Positions 2,778 through 34,027 of a stretch of 34,027 nt of DNA are shown here, in pieces. Each line of letters begins with the position of its first letter. The first letter of the stretch is position 1. Made by a program: the position numbers and the translations under genes. Location: the NCBI GenBank assembly GCA_002733705.1, contig NVWP01000047.1, forward strand, positions 1 through 34,027, read 5' to 3'. The notes under the pieces are model-generated. The model searched no databases, was not told the DNA's origin, and was given only the letters and a program-made list of their open reading frames with translations. Source of the DNA: Henriciella sp. (GTDB lineage Bacteria > Pseudomonadota > Alphaproteobacteria > Caulobacterales > Hyphomonadaceae).

Positions 2778-3425
2778 TCAGGAGAAGGCTGGCGTGTCCT
2801 CTTCTGACATGGCGCCAGTGGCCGGGTCTGGGGTGTCGCGCATCTTGCGGCCAAAACGGCCTTTGATCCAGCCGGCGCGCTCTTCCATCTTGCGAAGTTC
2901 GCCATCCAGCTTGGCCATGGTACGCGACAGGTCGCTGCTGTCTTCCTTGCGCCAGGCTATTTCTGCCTGTGCAAGGGCCCAGGCGATGGCGCTCTTGCGC
3001 ACAGGCTTGGGAAAATCACCGGCGCTATCAAGCCCGGCGCAGGCGAGGGCCCAGTTCGCGGTTTCGTGACGCGCGGCAATCAGGTTGAGGATACGGACAG
3101 GCTGGGTCTGACGCCACTCCTGTAGCGAGAGGAGGGCCTCGCGGTGTTGTTCCATCCTGTCGAAGCGCATCATGATGACGTCGAAGAGGCGCGTGCGGGG
3201 CGCTTCGTCCTCGCTGGTGGACCCTTCGCTCATTGCGCGGTCCAGCCAGGGTTCGACGGCGTCGGAAATTTTTGCCTTGTCCGCGACACCGTGGAAATCC
3301 TCAAGCGAAAGGCTGGCCCGCTCTGCTATGGCGCTGAGGGTGAGGTCACGCCAGTCAATGGTCTTGGTAAGATGGAGGGCCGCCTCGACGCCCTTGTCGA
3401 GAATCTCTCTGCGCGCATCGCTCAT
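2778..3425 (-). CDS. TetR-like / COQ9-family protein
   Basis: This 215-residue protein has a TetR-like helix-turn-helix start (about residues 25-55, LTLSAIAERASLSLEDF). It is followed by RLFDVIMMRFDRMEQHREAL (about 83-102), the typical first segment after the helix-turn-helix in alphaproteobacterial COQ9/TetR proteins. COQ9 proteins are lipid-binding helpers of ubiquinone biosynthesis built on the TetR fold. The C-terminus is charged (KMEERAGWIKGRFGRK) and looks like an extension. ATG 3425 follows an AGGAG site at eight bases and lies three bases past the proC stop, so it is the last gene of the ybjN-proC operon. Whether it binds DNA or lipid cannot be decided by eye. A ubiquinone role is plausible because ubiK lies 4 kb away, but this is inference. 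Confidence 0.75.
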   Translation of the reverse strand: MSDARREILDKGVEAALHLTKTIDWRDLTLSAIAERASLSLEDFHGVADKAKISDAVEPWLDRAMSEGSTSEDEAPRTRLFDVIMMRFDRMEQHREALLSLQEWRQTQPVRILNLIAARHETANWALACAGLDSAGDFPKPVRKSAIAWALAQAEIAWRKEDSSDLSRTMAKLDGELRKMEERAGWIKGRFGRKMRDTPDPATGAMSEEDTPAFS

Positions 3426-32522: not shown

Positions 32523-33797
32523 ATGAACGATCTCGTATCTCACCTGACGAAAGTCTTCACAGCGGCTTTCGAGGCCGAGGGCTTTGAAAGCCGCTGGGGC
32601 GCCGTGCGCCGCTCCGACCGCCCGGAGCTGGCCGATTTCCAGTGCAATGGATGCATGGGCGCAGCCAAGTCCAGAGGACTGGTGCCGCGCGATCTTGCTG
32701 CCACCATTGCTGAAAAGGTGCAGGGCGATGATGCCATTGAGCGCGTCGATGTCGCCGGGCCGGGTTTCCTGAATATCAAGGTGACATCCGAGGCGCTGTC
32801 GCGTCAGGCAGAAGCTGTGCGCGCGGATGACAAGGCTGGCGGCGGCGCTGTTGCTACGCCTGAAAAGGTCGTGATCGATTTTGGCGGTCCGAATGTCGCC
32901 AAACCGATGCATGTCGGCCATCTGCGCTCTGCGGTCATTGGTGACACGCTCTGCCGCCTTTTCCGCTTTCTTGGCGAAGACGTGACGGGCGACGCCCATC
33001 TTGGCGACTGGGGCCTGCAGATGGGCCACCTCATCACAGAATTGCTGGCCGAGCAGCCGGACCTCGTTTATTTCCGGCCGGATTTTGCTGGCCCCTATCC
33101 GGATGAGCCGCCTGTCACGATTGAAGACCTTGGCCGCCTCTATCCGCAGGCTTCCGCCAAGGCCAAGGAAGACCCCCAGCGCAATGAGGCGAGCCAGCTC
33201 GCTGTCGCTGAAATGCAGGCCGGGCACCCCGGCTACCGCGCGCTGCTGCGTCATTTCATCAATGTCTCGGTTGAGGCTCTGAAGGTCGATTACGGCTTTC
33301 TGGGTGTCGAGTTCGACCTCTGGAAGGGCGAGAGCGATGTCGATCAGCTCATCCCGGGCATGGTGGAGGACCTGAAGGAAAAGGGCCTCGCCAGACTGGA
33401 TGACGGCGCCTGGATCATCGATGTCTCGCGAGAGAGCGACAAGAAAGAGATGCCGCCCTTCATGGTCATCAATTCGCGCGGCGGCACGGGCTACCACGCG
33501 ACAGACCTTGCGACGATTGTCGACCGGGTTGAGACGCTGCACCCCGACCGCATGCTCTATGTGGTGGACCAGCGTCAGGCGCTGCACTTCGAACAGGTTT
33601 TCCGCGCCGCAGACATGGCGGGCCTGATGAGCGAGGACCGCCTCGAACATATCGGCTTTGGCACGGTAAACGGCACGGACGGCAAGCCGTTTAAAACGCG
33701 CGCAGGTGGCGTAGTGAGGCTTGATAATCTTATATCTTTGGCTGTTGAAAGGGCGATAACGCGCCTTGAGGAGGCCGATCTCGCCGCCGATATGGAC
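32523..33797 (+). CDS. argS: Arginyl-tRNA synthetase, 3' part lost at a junction
   Basis: ArgS charges tRNA-Arg with arginine in the cytoplasm. The N-terminal domain (MNDLVSHLTKVFTAAFE), the HIGH-type signature DFGGPNVAKPMHVGHLRSA (about residues 120-138), GDAHLGDWGLQMG, RGGTGYHATDLAT and FGTVNGTDGKPFKTR are all present. The match holds to about residue 425 (LEEADLAADMDE). A full ArgS has some 570-610 residues, so the C-terminal tRNA anticodon-binding domain is absent. The frame stays open to base 34027, but the residues after about 425 are not ArgS; there the opposite strand encodes a different gene. Codons in the last 100 bases before the junction are also AT-richer than the rest. ATG 32523 follows GGAAACGG. 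Confidence 0.9.
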
Positions 33798-34027
33798 GAG
33801 GCGCCAATGCAGATCATCCGGCAGACGGGCAAGCGCCCCCAAAAGCGTCCCGTATCCTTTCTTTTCGACCGCCCGGCCGACCGACAGGATGACCACCGGG
33901 TCCTTTTCCGAGCCGCCGTCGCGCTTCGCGGAGGAGAAATCCGGCGGTGGAAAGCGCCCCAGGTCGAGGCCGTGATAGACCAATTCAACCGCATCCGGGC
34001 GATCGGCCAGGGCGGCCAGGGCGTTCA
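33783..34027 (-). CDS. Fragment of a GT4-type glycosyltransferase (both ends missing)
   Basis: About 80 residues read as an internal piece of a GT4 (GT-B fold) glycosyltransferase of the colanic acid/exopolysaccharide type. VELVYHGLDLGRFPPP is the pre-nucleotide linker. It is followed by PVVILSVGRAVEKKGYGTLLGALARLP, the classic start of the donor-binding domain, and then DDLHWRLVHIGG. The family would continue with GPLLD-like residues, but the match stops at HIGG (33783-33794). From there the minus-strand reading is only the reverse of argS. The upstream side runs off the window. No start or stop belongs to this fragment. It is best explained by a chimeric join of two loci. Confidence 0.8.

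Follow-up and report, generated by a model that had tools for sequence, protein, structure and literature searches.

A head-on argS–glycosyltransferase fusion at the end of a Henriciella contig is very probably an interspecies chimera of three sources

At the end of one contig of Henriciella sp., the argS gene on the plus strand runs head-on into an inverted glycosyltransferase gene near 33.79 kb. The question raised by this locus is whether the fusion belongs to the host chromosome, in which case an essential gene would, unusually, have been lost, or whether sequences of different origin have been joined. The window, by which we mean the whole stretch of DNA that was analyzed (34,027 bp), is the entire contig C21, and the odd fusion occupies its final 288 bases, that is, the physical end of the contig. 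This location, as well as a second join at approximately 33674–33691, was missed by the original prediction. Its description of the fusion itself was borne out: the argS family profile TIGR00456 matched the plus strand, in agreement with an ArgS reading up to about residue 425, and DNA identity assigned the minus strand down to about 33783 to an internal piece of a GT4 glycosyltransferase ending at HIGG. The predicted overlap of 15–20 bases that suits both readings was likewise observed, at approximately 33782–33798. The host assembly consists of 156 contigs (3.37 Mb; 94.51% complete, 1.3% contaminated), and we infer from this fragmentation that it was derived from a metagenome. At the opposite end of the contig, a minus-strand frame at 1–2622, presumably encoding a TonB-dependent receptor, is truncated by the contig start, and an Rfam scan of the window detected no families at gathering scores.

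The plus-strand reading frame beginning at 32523 encodes 529 aa by open-frame count and matched TIGR00456 over residues 6–432 with a score of 273.2 bits (cut-off, 261.65). The frame contains the N-terminal and class I catalytic domains (PF03485 and PF00750, respectively), with the PF00750 match stopping at residue 421, and the C-terminal anticodon-binding domain, DALR_1, was absent from it in the profile search. The argS N-terminal part was matched in all 24 other same-genus genomes searched, and 23 loci from these genomes were used for comparison (G023, where the gene lies near a contig edge, was omitted). Residues 1–390 of the window ArgS showed identities of 0.84–0.94 to the 12 close loci and 0.66–0.72 to the 11 more distant ones. 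These ArgS identities assign 32523–33691 (+), covering the N-terminal portion together with most of the catalytic portion (residues 1 to approximately 390), to the host. The window was 0.94 identical over residues 1–390 to ArgS of both G017 and G016, two genomes that also share with it the order of the upstream reading frames, which we take to be ispH-like and lipoprotein-like. In G017 and G016, argS is full (587 aa), whereas the argS of the window finishes in foreign sequence.

Where the host sequence ends was estimated from a codon-aligned log-likelihood ratio, counted from residue 301, between 11 same-genus loci and 21 loci of f140, an alphaproteobacterial family distinct from that of the host, which we guess may be the SAR116 (Puniceispirillaceae) group. 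The ratio reached its maximum of 154.1 at 33686, remained within 2 nats of this value across 33674–33691 and was 86.8 by 33797, placing join 1, from host argS to foreign argS, at 33674–33691 (+) in the conserved GTDGKPFK stretch. DNA similarity of relatives to argS stopped at or before 33712 in most alignments and at 33721–33741 in five, in each case clearly short of the glycosyltransferase. Over residues 395–425, amino acid identity to the 23 same-genus loci was only 0.32–0.45, in a region that is kept within the genus (0.81–1.00 when L016 is compared with 10 other close loci). The 21 f140 loci displayed the reverse pattern, with 0.41–0.48 over residues 1–390 and 0.52–0.74 over residues 395–425, ranges that lean high, these loci being mostly the best matches among 88 matching genomes. 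Eleven other alphaproteobacterial loci gave 0.47–0.54 and 0.29–0.55 over the same two regions. When the 36-residue middle stretch was compared with 385 genomes of the class, 30 matched, among them the host's own; of the foreign genomes, the three with the highest identity all belonged to f140 (64–69%), and other families reached 47–63%, with three genomes of the host's order at 54–60%. Within f140, 88 of 104 genomes matched, the best at 78% amino acid identity over the 36 residues. The GC content was 0.524 over 33700–33781, as compared with 0.616 before and 0.663 after this segment. On these comparisons, argS from approximately 33692 onward is judged to belong to another lineage and not to the host, and the identity switch and GC content delimit a foreign argS piece of approximately 90–107 bp at 33692–33798 (+), whose nearest relatives are in f140.

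This middle piece also bears on how many sources were joined. A host argS that is naturally divergent at residues 395–425 and connected by one join to the glycosyltransferase would make a chimera of two sources, and the frame is indeed still ArgS-like up to approximately 33797. We nevertheless consider this improbable, because residues 395–425 are conserved in the genus, yet in the window they are 0.32–0.45 identical to the genus and up to 0.74 identical to f140, and because the base composition changes at the middle piece as well.

The third piece, at 33782–34027 (−), is internal to a GT4 glycosyltransferase gene, MarineAlpha3-like by DNA identity and truncated by the contig end. PF00534 matched 34025–33782 on the minus strand as a fragment only (23.3 bits against a cut-off of 26.4; profile positions 5–54 of 172), below the score for family membership; the glycosyltransferase domain is incomplete in the window. 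Among the best 80 of at least 123 relatives, amino acid identity over all 81 residues was 94% for L048, 91% for L049 and 86% for L050, and L051 was 96% identical over 57 residues. At the DNA level, the corresponding values were 241 of 246 alignment columns (97.97%) for L048, 231/248 for L049, 218/246 for L050 and 168/178 for L051. L048–L051 are all loci in metagenome-assembled genomes, that of L048 being Alphaproteobacteria bacterium MarineAlpha3_Bin3, and from this name only the sample behind the host assembly was probably marine. As judged from the alignment, the likeness of the piece to L048 is far beyond chance. The L048 gene is whole, encoding 419 aa and continuing beyond HIGG with GPLRGRL, whereas the window holds only the middle of such a gene. 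The contig carrying L051 (JADFNT010000047.1) likewise ends inside the glycosyltransferase gene, its match extending over 178 bases (2999–3176 of 3176).

At the DNA level, the glycosyltransferase piece had no second match in the host's own genome among the 40 of 91 first-look candidates that were scored. Nothing comparable was detected in the DNA of 40 relatives, for which up to 16 candidates per genome were scored; three words of 22–27 bases touched the range, one each in G003, G029 and G038. At the protein level, relatives were present in 13 of 41 genomes, the host's own included, and apart from the piece itself they were 28–50% identical over parts of its length, one of them being in the host's own genome (C60, 44%). 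At such identities, these proteins are best described as ordinary GT4 relatives and not as the source of the piece. PF00534 had eight other matches in the host assembly, and this was the sole search for the other halves of the glycosyltransferase gene. A viral origin of the piece was also considered and rejected, since the 51 pattern matches among viral contigs included no relatives.

Join 2 consists of a short shared word of approximately 17 bases at 33782–33798, which the alignments read as argS on the plus strand; on the minus strand it encodes VHIGG of the glycosyltransferase. The identity of L048, L049 and L050 with the window begins at 33782 and spans the word, with other sequence before this position. 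The 21 f140 argS loci matched at 0.56–0.81 in the word, falling to 0.29–0.52 past it. Five same-genus loci also matched the word, at 0.56–0.75, and the word therefore cannot separate the two argS sources. The lengths of the shared words are approximate, as is the end of the foreign argS at join 2, because the search for the third source yielded no exact parent. An 18-base inverted repeat (33639–33656 and 33786–33803; 89% complementary) has one arm at join 2, and its arms coincide with the codons for RLEHIG of the host argS and RLVHIG of the glycosyltransferase. This repeat may be due to chance, or it possibly helped to form join 2.

Could the middle piece have come from the same lineage as the glycosyltransferase? 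ArgS was sought in the genomes that carry 9 of the 80 listed glycosyltransferase loci, and eight of these nine genomes matched. The genomes carrying L048, L049 and L051 (G041, G042 and G044) contained only a divergent ArgS, 29–34% identical over part of its length, and G043, also among the four genomes with the closest glycosyltransferases, gave no ArgS match. Against the middle piece, ArgS of G041, G042 and G044 scored 26–31 (the G044 frame is just 286 aa and may not span this region), as compared with 67–69 for same-genus loci, 71 for L128 and 115–123 for four f140 loci. The MarineAlpha3 lineage was rejected as the source of the middle piece, since its ArgS is too divergent, and on these scores the middle argS piece and the glycosyltransferase most likely derive from different organisms. 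A second argS in the MarineAlpha3 lineage is possible, as G041–G044 may be incomplete and the ArgS set of this lineage is partly known.

We then considered the fate of the host's own argS. The argS N-terminal part had one match in the whole assembly, and the window provided the sole TIGR00456 match above the cut-off of 261.65; two other matches scored 22.6 and 10.1 bits over 33 and 32 profile positions, respectively. The search for an intact argS elsewhere in the assembly that the original prediction had called for thus came up empty. The single DALR_1 match in the assembly is on C2, in a frame that we take to encode GlyS (glycyl-tRNA synthetase beta). Protein and family searches of the host's own genome for another argS, or for a divergent gene replacing it, detected neither, and this possibility was discarded. 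The C-terminal part of argS was also not found in the assembly, which is 94.51% complete. A 6-kb query of G017, extending from inside argS into the downstream region, matched C21 at 33654–33712, a 29-base word on C9, and C48 from base 36. The C48 contig (19,115 bp) was 76% identical to G017 over 4.5 kb in the same orientation; the match begins 852 bp past the G017 argS stop, in the orientation expected after C21, and the gap between C21 and C48 is 1,425 bp in G017 coordinates. From this collinearity with G017, the host chromosome seems to resume at C48 base 36. Bases 1–35 of C48 are not covered by the G017 and G016 matches, which may reflect ordinary divergence or another ragged end. The simplest account is that the host argS is ordinary and that its remainder sits in the assembly gap of approximately 1.4 kb before C48.

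A real rearrangement of the host chromosome, in which an inversion or insertion broke argS and a second argS supplies the function, had been named in the original prediction as the alternative to a chimera. Because the assembly is incomplete to the extent given above, such a second argS could simply be missing from it. None was detected by protein or family search, however, and the C-terminal part of argS was not found in the 94.51% complete assembly, where the other halves of the glycosyltransferase gene were sought through PF00534 only. Since the glycosyltransferase piece gave no second DNA match there among the candidates scored and is near-identical to the gene of another organism, nothing indicates an inverted host gene. 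A rearrangement would also have to include a change to foreign sequence twice within approximately 125 bp, from a different source each time, in a genus in which every other genome searched matches the argS N-terminal part and with the G017 gene order resuming on C48. We therefore regard a rearrangement as highly unlikely.

Horizontal transfer would have placed an imported MarineAlpha3-like segment beside an argS that had been partly replaced by homologous recombination. Join 1 falls within a conserved argS stretch, a place in which crossovers by homologous recombination would be expected as well, and the inverted repeat at join 2 neither supports nor excludes transfer. The product, however, would lack the ArgS C-terminal domain, the third piece holds the middle of a gene and neither of its ends, and inspection by eye revealed no integrase or transposase around the joins, where the frames are those of argS and the glycosyltransferase. 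The probability that we assign to transfer is accordingly very small. A real strain having an argS recombined with f140-type sequence, interrupted by a glycosyltransferase segment of a third lineage and compensated by an unseen second ArgS gene, is scarcely credible.

The final ~340 bases of the contig are thus, on sequence comparison, very probably an interspecies chimera of three sources, which would have arisen during library preparation or mixed-sample assembly; that they are a chimera of some kind, the variant with two sources included, is nearly certain. Within approximately 350 bases there are three pieces, each with a different nearest relative; the nearest organisms differ across each join, and both joins fall in words common to the sources. 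The original prediction, which favored an assembly or amplification chimera, is upheld in this respect, given that the piece is near-identical to a foreign gene and that gene order resumes on C48, and the evidence supports refining it to two joins and three sources. As a possible course of events, support for the host sequence would end, and the assembler, a chimeric amplicon or a read would leave the host argS; it would then pass into the argS of another alphaproteobacterium via the conserved stretch at 33674–33691, and finally, via the shared word at 33782–33798, into a glycosyltransferase gene that is unrelated and oppositely oriented. Candidate sites for this crossing are a molecule, a read and the assembly graph.

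Accordingly, the head-on fusion is most likely not a biological feature and reveals nothing new about biology. Its significance is one of data hygiene only: the last ~340 bases are untrustworthy and are best trimmed, and annotation of the hybrid 529-aa frame as a complete ArgS should be avoided, as should scoring the genome as one that lacks argS or has it rearranged. Metagenome assembly can produce interspecies chimeras, a danger named in section 13 of PMC2829047, and the joining of organisms in one contig is the same here, at conserved or short shared words and on a contig that stops 229 bases beyond join 2, with nothing essential differing. Compared with such chimeras, the present case is, in our judgement, somewhat dense, having two joins within approximately 125 bp.
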